In this document: one piece after another, positions 44,875 through 51,898 of the stretch
Numbering within the stretch: the stretch's first letter is position 1
Layout: every line of letters starts with the position of its first letter
Origin: Vibrio sp. 10N.286.49.B1
GTDB lineage: Bacteria; Pseudomonadota; Gammaproteobacteria; Enterobacterales; Vibrionaceae
Reading direction: 5' to 3'
NCBI RefSeq assembly: GCF_002873335.1
Contig: NZ_MCUW01000089.1
Coordinates: 62,001 to 126,000, forward strand
DNA: 64,000 nucleotides
Made by a program: the position numbers and the translations under genes
The notes under the pieces: generated by a model
What the model was told of the DNA's origin: nothing
Seen by the model: only the letters and a program-made list of their open reading frames with translations
Database searches by the model: none

Positions 44875-45666
44875 TTAAAAAAACCATTTCATTCCTAGCT
44901 CAATACGAAGTTCATCATCCGCTTTATCTTCATGACCATTGGGTAAGATGACATCTGCGCTGCCATATTCAAATCTCGTCATTAACCATGTTTTTCGATC
45001 AGTGTTAATAGGAGCATTAATGAATAGACTGTATTTTAGAGACTCCATCTCAACCACGTCACCCGTCGTTTTAAAATATTCCGGCGAGAACTGGATAAAC
45101 GCCCCACTGTCTCCAATCGCTTGAGTCAAATACAGGTTCAGCATCAAGCCATCAGCTTTCTCACCGAAAACCTCACCTACCGTATAAGCAATATTGGGAA
45201 AGATCATTGCCCCACCGGTATAGGTGGGGTTTATCAAACCAATCACCCCTAGAGAAAACAGTGTGGTATCGTCAAGCCCTGAGTCCATTTGCCCACCAGC
45301 CTCACCGTCTATATGTATGATATCAGTCGACACACCGATACGAGGCATCAACAGATTGTTCATTGCATGAACTTGAAAATACTGTGCACGACCTTTTTGG
45401 TAGTTAGTGCCTAATTTATGTTGTTCTTGCTGTTTAGCATCGTTGTTCCCAAACGTACCTTCAACAAAACCCGCAAATTGAATATCTTCATTCCACGATC
45501 CCGTCATCATGCCTGACATTCTAATATCAGCATTTGAATCGAGAAACACTGCAGCTTGTGTATAGACACGTGTAAGATCTGATGGGTCGATCACTTCATT
45601 TTCTTTCGCAATAGTGGTAATAGAGCATGTAGATAGCAAAGCGGTCGTTAAGAATATTTTTTTCAT
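44875..45666 (-). CDS. Outer-membrane beta-barrel protein of unknown function (263 aa)
   Basis: A signal peptide (MKKIFLTTALLSTCSITTIA) precedes a long run of alternating strands with Gly and aromatic residues (IQFAGFVEGTFGN, GDSGAFIQFSPEYF) and a C-terminus LRIELGMKWFF, typical of barrels recognised by the Bam machinery. I do not recognise the family. The promoter region carries the element shared with the hydrolase gene at 47061-48431, which suggests joint control and a role in uptake or export of the same compound. Confidence 0.65.
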   Translation of the reverse strand: MKKIFLTTALLSTCSITTIAKENEVIDPSDLTRVYTQAAVFLDSNADIRMSGMMTGSWNEDIQFAGFVEGTFGNNDAKQQEQHKLGTNYQKGRAQYFQVHAMNNLLMPRIGVSTDIIHIDGEAGGQMDSGLDDTTLFSLGVIGLINPTYTGGAMIFPNIAYTVGEVFGEKADGLMLNLYLTQAIGDSGAFIQFSPEYFKTTGDVVEMESLKYSLFINAPINTDRKTWLMTRFEYGSADVILPNGHEDKADDELRIELGMKWFF

Positions 45667-45784
45667 TATTATCGCCTAGTGGTCAGGATGAGGACTCTCT
45701 TGCAAGGCTTCCATGCAATTGAGGGTCAATTAATTCCTTTTCTGACTAGAGAATAAAAATGACTCGCTTATGTTAATACTTAAG

Positions 45785-45803
45785 TTTGTAGGGGGAAACC
45801 AAC
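45785..45803 (-). promoter_or_regulatory. Shared promoter element, copy A
   Basis: TTTGTAGGGGGAAACCAAC (plus-strand reading) lies 119 bp upstream of the ATG of the OMP gene. It nearly equals copy B upstream of the hydrolase, one G longer, and the similarity extends about 20 bases toward the gene. The rest of this 317-base gap holds nothing I can name. Confidence 0.65.
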
Positions 45804-45983
45804 CAAAGCATGTAGTGCGCTTCAATTAGCTCAATTAACAGGCATTTCAATGGTAGGCCTTCATGAATACTTACAAAGTTGGAATATGAGGGATCAGGTG
45901 ACATCCGAGTGAATGACAGTTAAACGGTATTAGGCAGAATTAAGCGTCTGTTAAACATCATCACAAACGCCAGCCATGCATAG

Positions 45984-46877
45984 TCAAGTTTGAATATACG
46001 GTTTCGCTGATTTTATCAAGGCCTGAATAGTGATATCAATTTCTTGCTGATATCTATTAGCCAGTCCATAGAAGATACAAATACCTTGTTGATAGTCATA
46101 AACTGCATCTTCAAGCGCCAAAGCTACGAGCTCGCCTCGTTTAACCCATGGCTCACCGACAGCAGCCGGCATAACCATCCAGCCCCCATTTTTTAAGCGA
46201 CTTATAGCTAGCTCCATGCTACCAACTCTCTCAATGATATTGGCAACGGAGAAGCTAGCAAAGTCACCCTCTTGCGTCGCTTGGAGGCGCAATTGAGGCT
46301 CTAGACGCAAATCATTTAAGGACAACCCCTGTCGACGTACTAAGGGGTTCGTAACATGACAGTAGCACTTTATTGGTAGAGTACTGATAAAGTGAGATGC
46401 AAGGCGAGCCTTCGTTCTTGGGGCATTTTCAGTCGCCATAAGTGCTACTTGACAGCTTCCCTTCTCAATACTTTCGTAAGCCTCAGCTCGAGAAGCTGAT
46501 AGACAGTGTACTGGCAATCGAGGATAAGCTCGTTGTATTATCGGCAAGGCATCCGAGAGCATAGCGATCGGAAGCATAGCATCATACATGATCACTAACT
46601 CATCCAATGGTTCTTCGTATAATGAATATGCTGCTAGTGAAAAATCGTCCGCCTGTTTACTTAAGTTTGTTGCTCTCGCTATCAACTTATGAGCGGCTGC
46701 CGTTGGGGTTGCTGTTCGACCTTTTATTTCAAACAATGAAACCCCAATTGCATCCTCAAGAGTAACAACGTGCTCCCGAATGGTACTGCGTTCTTTGGTC
46801 GCGATTCGAGCGGCTGCGCTATAGGAGCCATGTTGGTATACAAGAGTGAAGGAATGGACTTGTTCAATGGTTATCAT
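45984..46877 (-). CDS. LysR-family transcriptional regulator (297 aa)
   Basis: The N-terminal winged helix (about 1-60: HSFTLVYQHGSYSAAARIATKERSTIREHVVTLEDAIGVSLFEIKGR) is somewhat degenerate compared with typical LysR but recognisable. A substrate-binding effector domain follows (about 90-290). It sits between the OMP gene and the hydrolase gene on the same strand. The effector is unknown; control of the neighbours is inferred. Confidence 0.82.
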   Translation of the reverse strand: MITIEQVHSFTLVYQHGSYSAAARIATKERSTIREHVVTLEDAIGVSLFEIKGRTATPTAAAHKLIARATNLSKQADDFSLAAYSLYEEPLDELVIMYDAMLPIAMLSDALPIIQRAYPRLPVHCLSASRAEAYESIEKGSCQVALMATENAPRTKARLASHFISTLPIKCYCHVTNPLVRRQGLSLNDLRLEPQLRLQATQEGDFASFSVANIIERVGSMELAISRLKNGGWMVMPAAVGEPWVKRGELVALALEDAVYDYQQGICIFYGLANRYQQEIDITIQALIKSAKPYIQT

Positions 46878-47060
46878 GCTGCATCTCTTAACAAAAATCG
46901 AACGACCTACGTCGTAATCGCTTCAATATCTACAAGGTTCACGTCAATATTTCGACTGGCAAGGCGACTATTTATACCAAAACAAAAGCAGGCTTTAAGT
47001 ATATCACTCAAGCCTGTAAACATTTGTCCAAAAACTCTGACCGCTAAAAGCAGTTCGTCA

Positions 47061-48431
47061 TCACTGAGGTAGATTCAATCTTTCCGCTACTTTTCTGAAA
47101 TATGCCGGCGCTTTGATTTCTCCGTAAGGTGCAACATAAGGTGTCGCGGAGAAATACACGGCTGCGAAATCTCGATTTGGGTCAACATAGATCCCTTGGC
47201 CTGTGTTCCCATGTTTATACATCGCGCCATCATCGAAAATGAAATCAAACTGATACCCCCCCTTCAACGGCTTCTCTCCGAATAGGCTCAATGCCTGCCC
47301 TTCTTTGGCACTGCCAATAAATGTCGCTGGGTCACCAGCATCTCTCAGGGCATCAAGGAGTGCTGGAGTCACGACTTGCTCATGGGCTACTTTATGCCAG
47401 CTCGGAGTATAAAGTGTTGCGTATTTCGCAAAATCTTCAAGTGTCGATGATACCATAGCCATATTCAAAGGTGTGCCATCTGGTGTAAGGTGAACTTGCA
47501 GCGGCATACGTGCTCCCAGTTTACCCCAGACACGCTCTTCCACAACATCGGACCAACGTTTACCCGTCACATCTTCAATCACCATACCCAGCACTTGTGT
47601 ATTGAGCGACGAATAACGGAATCGATCCCCTGGTTTCTCATTGTTGAGCGGTTGTACCTCTTTGAGCACATCACGCCAACTTTCCAAATTGTTTCCTTTA
47701 GTCGTCCCTAAAGCTGCACTTACAAACCGAACAAACACTCCGTTGGGATCCAAAATTGATTGATTACTTTCTTCGTGATCCAAGCTTGCCGTATGATTTG
47801 CAAGGTGGCGTACTGTCACCCCATCCCACGCCGTGCCCTTCAATTCTTTTGCATAGGTCGTTACTGGTGCATCTAAGTTCAATAGCTTATCTTCATCCAG
47901 CATAGCAACAATCAAACCAGTGAGTGATTTGGATGACGACATCCAAATATGGTTATCAGTCGGCGTCATGCCAGGGTAAGCTTCATACACAACTTGCCCT
48001 TTATGAATCATCATGACACCTTGATGGCGAAAGGTTGAATGAAAAAAGTAATCATCCATTGCCACATCACCCTCGCTGTCTGTAGTGACCACTATATCGC
48101 CGATATCAGCATTTAAATTTCGCTCTAAATTGATTTGTTCTGAATGAGGATTAACCGTGTCCGTACGCATGAACGTTGACCAATTCGTTAAATAGTAAAG
48201 AGTATGGTCGCCTCCCATTTGAGCATGAAAACTTTCGAAACTATCATAGGCAACGTTAACAAATTCTGCAGAGAATGGCTGTTTTGCTGCACTAACAGGC
48301 AAAGTGACACTTGCACCGGGAGCTGCCAAATATTGCGCCAATGGGTGTTCATCTGCTGCAATAACTGGTGATGTCACTGTGACCAAAGATGAAATCGCAA
48401 AAGCTAAAGTTTTTATCGTAATGTTTTTCAT
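47061..48431 (-). CDS. Secreted beta-lactamase-fold serine hydrolase (456 aa)
   Basis: A signal peptide (about 1-26, cleavage after SPVIA) exports the protein to the periplasm or beyond. The fold is class C beta-lactamase/esterase: SSSK with nucleophile Ser165 and Lys168, then RYSSLN with Tyr273 (YSS rather than the YxN of true AmpC). HLANHTASLDHEE and HGNTGQGIYVDP are also present. The order fits 6-aminohexanoate-dimer hydrolase (NylB)-like esterases better than antibiotic-resistance enzymes. It is divergent from an AraC regulator and has the shared promoter element 87 bp upstream. Confidence 0.82.
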   Translation of the reverse strand: MKNITIKTLAFAISSLVTVTSPVIAADEHPLAQYLAAPGASVTLPVSAAKQPFSAEFVNVAYDSFESFHAQMGGDHTLYYLTNWSTFMRTDTVNPHSEQINLERNLNADIGDIVVTTDSEGDVAMDDYFFHSTFRHQGVMMIHKGQVVYEAYPGMTPTDNHIWMSSSKSLTGLIVAMLDEDKLLNLDAPVTTYAKELKGTAWDGVTVRHLANHTASLDHEESNQSILDPNGVFVRFVSAALGTTKGNNLESWRDVLKEVQPLNNEKPGDRFRYSSLNTQVLGMVIEDVTGKRWSDVVEERVWGKLGARMPLQVHLTPDGTPLNMAMVSSTLEDFAKYATLYTPSWHKVAHEQVVTPALLDALRDAGDPATFIGSAKEGQALSLFGEKPLKGGYQFDFIFDDGAMYKHGNTGQGIYVDPNRDFAAVYFSATPYVAPYGEIKAPAYFRKVAERLNLPQ

Positions 48432-48517
48432 ATGAGTACCATTATTAAAATGGCTCCTATCACGGAGCAGAAAGCTTCATTTCACTTTAACAATCAGTTC
48501 GCGTTGTAAAACTCATA

Positions 48518-48535
48518 TTTGTAGGGGAAACCAAC
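48518..48535 (-). promoter_or_regulatory. Shared promoter element, copy B
   Basis: TTTGTAGGGGAAACCAAC (plus-strand reading) lies 87 bp upstream of the hydrolase ATG, in the divergent region shared with the AraC gene. It matches copy A at 45785-45803 except for one G. Confidence 0.65.
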
Positions 48536-48680
48536 TCAAATGACACCCTGCACATTGACTTAACTGCATCTCCACTACCATCTTAATAGATCCTAATTTG
48601 CCTCTATACCAACAAACTCAAACCTAGTATCTTGCTTGACAACATCTATTGGCACATCCTTTTTAAATAATAGGGTTAAC

Positions 48681-49700
48681 ATGACTGAAAAATACGAATT
48701 CCCGTCAACATTGTCAGTACATCAAGGATGGCAAAAAATACTTTCCGAATGCAATTACATACATCATTCTGCCTCCTTTACCTCCTCCCTTAGAACAACT
48801 TCAAACGGACGCCTCCATTTACACGATTTGAGAAGGTTGCTAACTAATTTGTGTCACCAAACGAAAGATAACATTATACCGATGAGAGTCGCGCAACACG
48901 TCACCCCTCTGACGTTTGGGTGTTACTCGCTCGCATTATGGACAGCACCCAACCTCAAATCTTTGCTAAAAAATGCGGCAGATTATTGCATTGTCGTGGC
49001 GTCGCCCATCCGTCTTCAGTACAAGGAAGACAAACAAGGAAACGCTGAGTTATGGGTTCTGGATAGCGAACCATTTAATCAGGAAAGTCGCGTCACCTAC
49101 CTTGGCATCACTTTATTGATTTGTACCCTTGTCTCTATCATTCGACAGGTGACAAAAAACGAAACACTCCCAATCACCATTAAACTCAACGAACCCATAC
49201 AATCAGACGCTTACACGGAACAACTTAAATTATTGACACAAACCACCATCTTTAACGGTGCGCCCGTTAGAAAGATCTGTGTCGACAAAAGCTATTTGAA
49301 CGACCCACTTCCGACCCATGACAAAGCGCTTTATTTTGCTACGCTAACCTTAGTCAGAAAGGAATCAGAAGCGCTAGAAACCGGTGATTTAATTCTTCGC
49401 ATTTACAATGCGTTAAACAACATCGAACGCTTGGAAAACCTATCAGGCTCAGGCTTAGCCAGTGCTCTCAATATGAACATTCGCACTTTGAATAGAAAGC
49501 TCTATGGCCTCAATACTAGCTATCGCGGCGTACTTGAGAAATACAAACTGGAGAAATCACTACACTTGCTCGAAGATGCTAATAACAATTTAACCGAAAT
49601 TGCCTATCAATTAGGTTTCTCAGACCTTAGTACTTTTTCTCGCGCTTTCAAAAGATGGACAGGACAAAGCCCCATAAAATTTAGGCAGCAGAACATTTAA
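48681..49700 (+). CDS. AraC-family regulator (339 aa)
   Basis: An N-terminal ligand domain of the arabinose-binding-like type found in OruR/ArgR-like regulators (about 30-200) is followed by two C-terminal HTH motifs (LASALNMNIRTLNRKLYG and LTEIAYQLGFSDLSTFSRAFKRWTGQSP). The ATG at 48681 has AGGG 6 bases upstream and is preferred to an earlier in-frame TTG. Its divergent position beside the hydrolase makes it the prime candidate to read the shared element. Confidence 0.88.
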   Translation: MTEKYEFPSTLSVHQGWQKILSECNYIHHSASFTSSLRTTSNGRLHLHDLRRLLTNLCHQTKDNIIPMRVAQHVTPLTFGCYSLALWTAPNLKSLLKNAADYCIVVASPIRLQYKEDKQGNAELWVLDSEPFNQESRVTYLGITLLICTLVSIIRQVTKNETLPITIKLNEPIQSDAYTEQLKLLTQTTIFNGAPVRKICVDKSYLNDPLPTHDKALYFATLTLVRKESEALETGDLILRIYNALNNIERLENLSGSGLASALNMNIRTLNRKLYGLNTSYRGVLEKYKLEKSLHLLEDANNNLTEIAYQLGFSDLSTFSRAFKRWTGQSPIKFRQQNI

Positions 49701-49876
49701 TAGAAAGTAGCTATTTGAAGATCAAGTAGTTACTGATCTATATCAACGTTCAGTTCGAATGCACTTTCAGTCAAACGTTTGTCCTAAAATGCAAAGTTAG
49801 AACACATCTCCCTTGCTCTAATACCGATAGCTTATTTTTCTGGTTAATCCAGAGGTTAAAGATATTGGAGATTCAG

Positions 49877-51898
49877 ATGTTAGAACAAAAACACAAAGTA
49901 CTGTTTGAACCGATGAAAATTGGCTCATTAACCCTTAAAAATCGCTATTCGATGGCTCCAATGGGAACGTTAGGGTGTGTTGATGCCGATGGTGCTTATA
50001 ACCATCGTGGTATTGAGTATTATGCGGCTCGAGCTCGTGGGGGTGTCGGACTCATCATCACTGGCGTTCAAATGGTTGAGAATGAACTTGAACAATTTCC
50101 GATGCCATCACTTCCTTGCCCCACTCATCACCCTACCGCCTATATTCGCAGTGCGAAGGAGATGACGGAGCGGGTCCATACCTACGGTACGAAAATTTTT
50201 GCTCAACTGACTGCGGGTTGGGGCCGTTCCTGTATACCAGGTTTTACCCCCATCGATAAGTCTATCGCTCCTTCCGAAGCACCAAATAGGTTCGACCCGT
50301 CCATAAAGCATCGTGAACTCACGACCAAAGAAGTCAAATATTTCATTTCTAAATTTATAGAGTCAGCCGTTATTGCCCAAAAGTCAGGATATGATGGGGT
50401 CGAAATTCACGCTGTACATGAAGGCTATTTACTCGACCAATTTACCATGGAGTTCTTCAACCAACGAACGGATCAGTACGGCGGAAGTTTCGAAAATCGG
50501 TATCGATTTGCGACCGAAATTGTACAAGGCATTAAAGCCGTATGTGGTCAGCAATTTCCAGTATCACTCCGTTATTCCGTTAAAGGCAACATGAAAGGCT
50601 TTGGTCAAGGTATTCTGCCAGGAGAATACGCAGAAGAGGTGGGACGTGATTTGGAAGAGGGACTTCAAGCCGCAAAATATTTGCAGGACGCCGGTTTTGA
50701 TGCGCTCAACGTTGACGCAGGCACTTATGATTCTTGGTATTGGAATCACCCACCAAATTACTTCCAACCTGGAATGTACAAACCTTATTGTAAGGCAGTT
50801 TCGGAAGTCGTTGATATTCCGATTCTTATGGCTGGCCGCATGGAAGATCCAGACTTAGCTGCTCACGCTGTCACTACTAACATAGCTACAGGCATTTCGT
50901 TAGGCCGTCCTCTACTCGCCGATCCCGATGTTGTGAATAAGATTCGCCGCGGACGTTTTAATGAGGTTCGCCCTTGTTTATCATGTCACCTTGGTTGCTT
51001 GGGCCGCATGGCAGAAGTGGGCAACCTATCATGCGCAGTCAACCCTAGCTGTGGGCGAGAAGATGAGTTCAAGTTGCTACCAACGCACAAAAAGAAGAAA
51101 GTCGTCGTCGTCGGTGGTGGCGTAGCGGGAATGGAGGCTGCTAGGACCGCAGCAGAGCGAGGCCATGATGTCGTATTGTTTGAAAAGTCATCAGCATTGG
51201 GTGGTAATGTCATCCCTGGTAGCCAACCACCTTTCAAGCATGACGATAAAAGACTCATTGCATGGTTTACCGGCGAAATGGATCGCAAGCACGTAGAAGT
51301 TCGACTCAATACAACCGCCTGTCAAAGCTCTATTGAAGCTGAAGCACCTGATAGTGTCATCTTCGCAACGGGGTCTCGCCCGACAAGCGCGGCGTGGCTT
51401 GAAGGAAGCGACAAGCCAAATGTACTACTCGCCGAAGACATGTTAATGAATCCGAGCTTGATTACAGGCAATAGTGTAATTGTCATAGGTGCAGGTCTGG
51501 TCGGCGCCGAGGCAGCACTGTGGATGGCACAGCTGGGAAAGAAGACCACGCTTGTCGAGATCTCAAGTGACATAATTGGGGGGCCACATGGGACTTGTTT
51601 TGCTAACTACCAGATGCTCAAAGAATTACTGGTCAAGGAAAATGTCACCGTCATGACACAAACTGCATTGCATAGTATCAGCAACACGGGCGTTTCATTG
51701 CGCCAAGAGCAGAAAAAACTCAAAGTTGAAGCCGACCACGTAGTACTGGCTCTAGGTTATAAAGCACAAGACGAGATATATAACACGCTCGCCAATCAAT
51801 TAGATATTGATGATGTCTTCAATATTGGTGACAGCCAACTGGCACGAACAATTATGACAGCAATTTGGGATGGTTTTGAAGTGGGGCGTCACCTATAG
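49877..51898 (+). CDS. Old-yellow-enzyme/Fe-S/FAD oxidoreductase (673 aa)
   Basis: This is a multidomain flavoenzyme of the 2,4-dienoyl-CoA reductase/enoate reductase/BaiCD type. The N-terminal FMN TIM barrel (about 5-340) has EIHAVHEGYLLDQF and YGGSFENRYRF. The 4Fe-4S ligands are Cys367, Cys370, Cys374 and Cys386 (CLSCHLGC...LSC). An FAD/NAD(P)H region follows with VVVVGGGVAGMEAA and VIVIGAGLVGAEAA. It reduces activated C=C bonds; the substrate is unknown. The ATG at 49877 has GGAG 7 bases upstream. It lies downstream of the AraC gene in the same orientation. Confidence 0.88.
   Translation: MLEQKHKVLFEPMKIGSLTLKNRYSMAPMGTLGCVDADGAYNHRGIEYYAARARGGVGLIITGVQMVENELEQFPMPSLPCPTHHPTAYIRSAKEMTERVHTYGTKIFAQLTAGWGRSCIPGFTPIDKSIAPSEAPNRFDPSIKHRELTTKEVKYFISKFIESAVIAQKSGYDGVEIHAVHEGYLLDQFTMEFFNQRTDQYGGSFENRYRFATEIVQGIKAVCGQQFPVSLRYSVKGNMKGFGQGILPGEYAEEVGRDLEEGLQAAKYLQDAGFDALNVDAGTYDSWYWNHPPNYFQPGMYKPYCKAVSEVVDIPILMAGRMEDPDLAAHAVTTNIATGISLGRPLLADPDVVNKIRRGRFNEVRPCLSCHLGCLGRMAEVGNLSCAVNPSCGREDEFKLLPTHKKKKVVVVGGGVAGMEAARTAAERGHDVVLFEKSSALGGNVIPGSQPPFKHDDKRLIAWFTGEMDRKHVEVRLNTTACQSSIEAEAPDSVIFATGSRPTSAAWLEGSDKPNVLLAEDMLMNPSLITGNSVIVIGAGLVGAEAALWMAQLGKKTTLVEISSDIIGGPHGTCFANYQMLKELLVKENVTVMTQTALHSISNTGVSLRQEQKKLKVEADHVVLALGYKAQDEIYNTLANQLDIDDVFNIGDSQLARTIMTAIWDGFEVGRHL

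Follow-up and report, generated by a model that had tools for sequence, protein, structure and literature searches.

Two genes of one accessory cluster, encoding a hydrolase with a signal-peptide-like start and an outer-membrane-like protein (OMP), are preceded by near-identical strings of 18-19 bp, and the question raised by this locus is which regulator would read them. We analyzed the cluster in a 64-kb (64,000-nucleotide) stretch of Vibrio DNA, hereafter called the window, in the rest of that genome and in relatives. A gene for a LysR-type regulator lies between the OMP and hydrolase genes on the same strand, in tandem with the hydrolase gene and 183 bp after it, and the flavoenzyme gene follows that for an AraC-type regulator (Table 1). 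The name OMP rests on the preliminary description of this DNA and on the look of the sequence, which is outer-membrane-like. That description had proposed that one activator, probably either the AraC or the LysR protein, controls both genes. In a literature search by sequence strings and gene content we found no description of the element, and the matches listed included no bacterial promoters by title.

Table 1. Genes, promoter elements and candidate -10 boxes of the cluster (window coordinates)
Feature	Position	Strand	Remarks
OMP-like gene, 263 aa	44875..45666	-	0 Pfam matches even at E 10
LysR-type regulator	45984..46877	-	Pfam HTH_1 and LysR_substrate
Hydrolase, beta-lactamase/esterase fold, signal-peptide-like start	47061..48431	-	PF00144, E 2.7e-36
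AraC-type regulator, divergent from hydrolase	48681..49700	+	PF12833, PF12625
Old-yellow-enzyme-type flavoenzyme gene, start chosen by us	49880..51898	+	PF00724, PF07992
Hydrolase-side element	48518..48535	-	Gene direction GTTGGTTTCCCCTACAAA; top match of two models built without the window
OMP-side element	45785..45803	-	Gene direction GTTGGTTTCCCCCTACAAA; model ranks 12 and 5; p 0.056
Shared promoter block, hydrolase half	48488..48540	-	Local alignment, 0/2000 shuffles
Shared promoter block, OMP half	45754..45807	-	Local alignment, 0/2000 shuffles
Candidate -10 box TAAAGT, hydrolase gene	48484..48489	-	15 bp after 22-bp core; spacing peak, 11 promoters
Candidate -10 box TATTCT, OMP gene	45750..45755	-	16 bp after 22-bp core; spacing peak, 9 promoters
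Presumed AraC operator TGTCCTAAAATGCAAAG	49780..49796	+	Before flavoenzyme gene; TCTAAT after 20 bp; same in 9/12 AraC loci

Two copies of the element in one genome

String search of the 64-kb window located the element as TTTGTAGGGGGAAACCAAC before the OMP gene and as TTTGTAGGGGAAACCAAC before the hydrolase gene, 119 and 87 bp from the start codons (at 45666 and 48431, respectively), just where it had been reported. Because both genes lie on the minus strand, its functional reading is GTTGGTTTCCCC(C)TACAAA toward the genes. The pattern arose in none of 100 shuffles of the window, and a search of the whole genome (5,149,300 bases) gave two exact matches, those at these two promoters; the many hits outside promoters that would have spoken against the proposal were not seen. 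With up to three mismatches allowed genome-wide, the 18-mer returned the hydrolase site only and the 19-mer returned the OMP site together with one place within a 729-aa reading frame.

The similarity had also been said to continue toward each gene, and this was borne out: the 300-bp regions upstream of the two genes align locally over ~55 bp with a score of 22.5, which none of 2000 dinucleotide shuffles of these regions reached (maximum 22.0). This shared block takes in the -35/-10 region, and beyond it no similarity is left between the two upstream regions. Given the outcome of both sets of shuffles and the conservation of the core in relatives, we give chance similarity practically no weight, in agreement with the original view that recurrence by chance was very unlikely.

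A conserved core at the hydrolase promoters of relatives

The exact element string is present in none of the 195 other genomes of the genus searched. With up to four mismatches, the 18-mer and the 19-mer gave stray hits among the first 45 loci, none of them at a relative's hydrolase or OMP promoter; the conserved core became visible only with the upstream regions laid side by side. A hydrolase of 72-75% identity is encoded in 10 other genomes of the 329 in the family, seven of them from the genus of the window and three from a second genus (two of these Photobacterium), and in all 10 the core CCCTACATAATTGAATTTTTTG, or a close variant, stands 92-100 bp before the hydrolase ATG. Nine of these relatives were used to build a hydrolase-promoter model, which then found the site in the tenth (L068). 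With up to three mismatches the core pattern has 16 matches in 12 genomes, 10 of them before these hydrolase genes; of the other six, one is on the G023 contig that bears AraC and the remaining five have exactly three mismatches. Read backwards, the pattern has no match in the same 12 genomes, and at up to three mismatches the relatives' pattern has none in the genome of the window. In the window itself the hydrolase model scores the hydrolase element highest (11.3, followed by 11.1) and puts the OMP element 12th.

Across 11 hydrolase promoters, the window's own included, a -10-like hexamer stands out 15 bp after the 22-bp core, with a mean of 4.82 of 6 matches to TATAAT compared with 3.82 at the next best spacing. 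The hydrolase copy of the window (CCCTACAAATATGAGTTTTACA, 15 bp, TAAAGT) has the same geometry as its relatives, and the core overlaps the -35 position. Judged by eye, the conserved stretch reaches this position without a TTGACA-like hexamer, in keeping with an activator-dependent promoter.

Two other sequence features were seen at hydrolase promoters. An inverted repeat, TTTGTTTCG / CGAAACAAA, flanks the -10 box upstream of the hydrolase gene in L064 and several relatives, not in the window, and is a possible repressor site or hairpin. The regions before paralogous hydrolase genes in L009, L010, L012 and L015 have the string AAATGACCTATTT in common, perhaps an operator of another regulator.

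The LysR-type regulator as a candidate binder

A LysR of 48-54% identity is encoded in exactly the 10 other genomes that carry the 72-75% hydrolase (329 searched), and it is the next gene downstream of the hydrolase in nine of the 10; in L046 another LysR gene and a choloylglycine-hydrolase-family gene stand between the two. The regulator gene is linked to its presumed target, as looked for in a LysR-type operator. In a tree of 26 LysRs the 11 hydrolase-linked proteins group together (support 89/91), and five OMP-linked proteins form a separate group (support 98/94). Over residues 1-65 the LysR of the window shares 74-83% identity with its orthologues, but over residues 90-297 the figure is 37-42%. 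Nine of the 10 orthologues have the same recognition-helix stretch as the window's LysR, KERSTIRE, and L065 has RERSTIRE. Weaker LysR relatives (39-42%) occur in three more genomes (G023, G008 and G007). We found no convincing element beside those of G007 and G008, or beside the second copy in G120 (in the same identity range), which counts against LysR as the binder.

The OMP promoters of other species were compared in a sample of 21 further OMP genes, all with an identity of 52% or more. A similar element, for example TGGGTTATTCCCATCAATATGGTTTTTTATG, precedes five OMP genes that have a convergent LysR gene alongside (L050, L052, the second copy of L053, L057 and L058), and the five convergent LysRs belong to one clade. 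With the hydrolase-only model and 300 shuffles for each site, these five OMP sites give p values of 0.003-0.040, compared with 0.013 for the hydrolase copy and 0.056 for the OMP copy of the window. Conversely, a model made from the five OMP sites recovers the core in all 10 hydrolase relatives (in L062 one base out). When run over both strands of the 64-kb window, this model has the hydrolase element as its top hit, shifted by one base, and the OMP element in fifth place; in register, the hydrolase site comes only 81st. The element was found at five of six OMP genes with an adjacent convergent LysR gene vs. one of 15 without (p 0.0017, with the labels set after the sites had been seen), and at four of five vs. 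one of 14 when near-identical pairs were collapsed (p 0.006). LysRs of other clades beside OMP genes (the first copy of L053, and L055) were counted as not adjacent, and the sole miss among the LysR-adjacent genes is L060, in which the OMP gene is broken. In an OMP set of nine promoters, three of whose sites are weak, the -10 spacing peaks at 16 bp (mean 4.22 of 6); the set includes L054, L056 and L059 (p 0.472, 0.372 and 0.037), which have no adjacent LysR gene.

LysR-type regulators are described as recognizing a T-N11-A site, which often lies near -65, and as binding in addition an activation site over the -35/-10 (PMC8407307). Set against that description, the element is alike in having T-N11-A in both window copies (48534-48522 and 45801-45789, by eye), a GG/CC-armed dyad, a stretch running into the -35 and a LysR gene beside the targets. 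T-N11-A was also seen by eye in all five OMP promoters with the convergent LysR clade. The element differs from the description in its dyad, which would be centered near -52 rather than -65 if transcription starts ~7 bp after the -10 box. It differs further in the T-N11-A register, which is not constant among the hydrolase relatives (by eye, only two of 10 keep that of the window), and in the LysR gene, which stands in tandem between its targets and is divergent from neither. For a dyad centered at -3 from the CCC, complementary pairs number 31/54 in the OMP set (median 0.28) and 32/66 in the hydrolase set (median 0.26); in the latter, a center at +10.5 scores above that at -3. The element may work like a LysR-type operator, its membership of the class being only partly shown.

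Together these data suggest that the element is probably the operator of the LysR encoded at 45984-46877 and serves both the hydrolase and the OMP gene. In the mechanism that we propose, LysR would dock on the GG-N3-CC dyad together with CCCTACA, at about -60 to -45, and once its ligand is bound would assist RNA polymerase where the promoter has no good -35. The -10 box of such promoters would lie 15-16 bp after the 22-bp core, and the element would merge into the -35 region as a LysR operator; we infer both the activation by LysR and the start sites. The proposal of one common activator is upheld insofar as promoter geometry, the conserved core and the other-species models, which pick out both copies (the OMP copy more weakly), all point to a common regulator. 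As for the choice between AraC and LysR, LysR is favored: it is inherited with the hydrolase, distant OMP genes that have a similar element stand beside a convergent LysR gene, and a different operator fits AraC. Some observations speak against LysR: the dyad near -52 is closer than the usual -65, the T-N11-A register recurs in only two of the 10 relatives, and the OMP copy reaches only p 0.056.

Two other readings bear on this evidence. A regulator encoded elsewhere in the genome might bind the element, given that neither local protein is linked to it by any physical observation and that many activators use class II geometry. Yet the restriction of the element to the two promoters of this cluster suits a local regulator, and the cluster with the element co-inherits LysR, so we consider a distant regulator quite improbable. 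Alternatively, the OMP promoter could be a recent copy of the hydrolase promoter, the match then reflecting shared origin rather than selection by a common regulator; the ~55-bp likeness of the two copies does exceed the likeness of either to the cores of relatives, and the OMP genes of the closest relatives lack the element. However, the similarity ends with the block, and the elements hold the spacing seen in other species. Such a copy would also bring its regulator along, which adds to the case for LysR more than it opposes it; we regard origin by recent copying alone as highly unlikely.

AraC and a possible change of operator at the OMP gene

Class II activator sites of the AraC/XylS type overlap the -35. 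The element shares with them this overlap and a fixed distance to the -10 box, measured from the first base of the core as 37 bp at the hydrolase promoters, 38 bp in the OMP set and, likewise, 37 bp at the presumed AraC sites. The divergent AraC-type regulator could therefore bind both copies as class II sites overlapping the -35, and this reading has further points in its favor. All 12 cluster genomes encode an AraC homologue, which in G275 is ~5 kb away from the hydrolase. In the window 163 bp separate the element from the AraC gene, and CCCTACATAA lies 158-160 bp upstream of AraC in seven of eight Vibrio relatives. The 12 of 12 homologues and the recurrence of CCCTACATAA also count against LysR as the binder and keep the choice between the two from being a clean one. 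The repeats upstream of AraC have, however, only ~10 bp in common with the core. In addition, the element persists in the Photobacterium loci L003 and L004 beside LysR, where we found neither AraC nor OMP within 12 and 17 kb of locus sequence.

The element is also unlike the sequence kept at the flavoenzyme gene next to AraC. A TGTCCTAAAATGCAAAG-like operator stands before the flavoenzyme gene of the window and of eight relatives, that is in nine of the 12 AraC loci scanned, as counted with a pattern written by eye from the very sequences then counted. It was not found in the three AraC loci of the second genus (counted per AraC locus), and the strict pattern is present in five of six flavoenzyme upstream regions, L053 differing. 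None of the hydrolase promoters scanned has a TGTCCTAAAATGCAAAG-like pattern. AraC would most naturally be expected to bind at this operator, and because another operator thus fits AraC, we demote AraC as the binder of the element and hold that role to be unlikely for it.

At the OMP gene this same operator, as TGACCTAAAATGCAAAG or a near variant, is found in all eight Vibrio cluster relatives, G023 included, and stands in each of the eight exactly 20 bp before TTTAAT or TTAAAT. No TGTCCTAAAATGCAAAG-like operator was found before the OMP gene of the window, where the element aligns on a CCCTACAAA-like string of L047, L062 and L063. In these three relatives the string comes shortly after the AraC-type promoter's -10. 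Hence the conservation asked of the two copies holds for the hydrolase copy, whose core is kept, and fails for the OMP copy, in place of which the closest relatives have another operator. These sequences suggest that the OMP gene of this lineage moved from AraC-type to LysR-type control.

A fuller account would be that operators were swapped while the regulator co-evolved: the OMP gene lost its AraC-type operator and gained the LysR operator of the hydrolase gene, with regulator, operators and regulon moving in step. Its basis is the long branch of the LysR, only 37-42% identical over residues 90-297, the form GTTGGTTTCCCC(C)TACAAA peculiar to both window operators, and the absence, in the same lineage, of the CoA-transferase, FadB-like and thiolase genes from between AraC and hydrolase. 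We offer this account tentatively, as possible rather than probable. Genes for a CoA-transferase/hydrolase, a FadB-like protein and a thiolase lie between AraC and hydrolase in L048 (11615-16299) and at the same place in L046, L062 and L063; they are absent here in the window (as judged for this locus only), so that AraC and hydrolase are direct neighbors. We also considered whether a deletion had joined CCCTACATAA, before the CoA-transferase gene, to the hydrolase element. Of 16 comparisons on the AraC side, not one beat its shuffles (lowest 47/300); on the hydrolase side, core included, at most 49/300 shuffles scored as high in seven of nine hydrolase relatives and in none of seven CoA-transferase regions.

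The site itself is of an ordinary regulatory kind, and the more interesting part is that the OMP gene may have changed its class of operator. If the operator swap is true, it would be a small case of a gene switching regulons while its neighbors stay. On the favored reading a secreted hydrolase and an outer-membrane-like protein without classification would form one regulated unit, for which a candidate regulator can be named, and this regulator offers a route to the ligand and substrate of the Vibrio/Photobacterium cluster.

Choloylglycine-hydrolase-family and RND-efflux genes also occur in the cluster of Vibrio/Photobacterium relatives, and in some relatives the OMP gene has RND-type efflux genes nearby (L062:13302-16412 and L050:5137-10729); these calls rest on Pfam ACR_tran and OEP, the remaining genes of each set being assigned by size only. 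Six of the 10 loci L036-L045 (L039-L044) carry a pair resembling a two-gene operon, in which a hydrolase paralogue of the 44-47% type is followed after ~66 bp by an OMP paralogue of 35-40% identity, an independent hint that the hydrolase and OMP proteins work together. Broken pieces were also seen, namely a hydrolase gene with stops (L047:112-1225, in G023), an OMP gene (L060:9611-10398) and a hydrolase-like remnant before a LysR gene (L110:1158-1406), and these suggest that such modules have been lost repeatedly.
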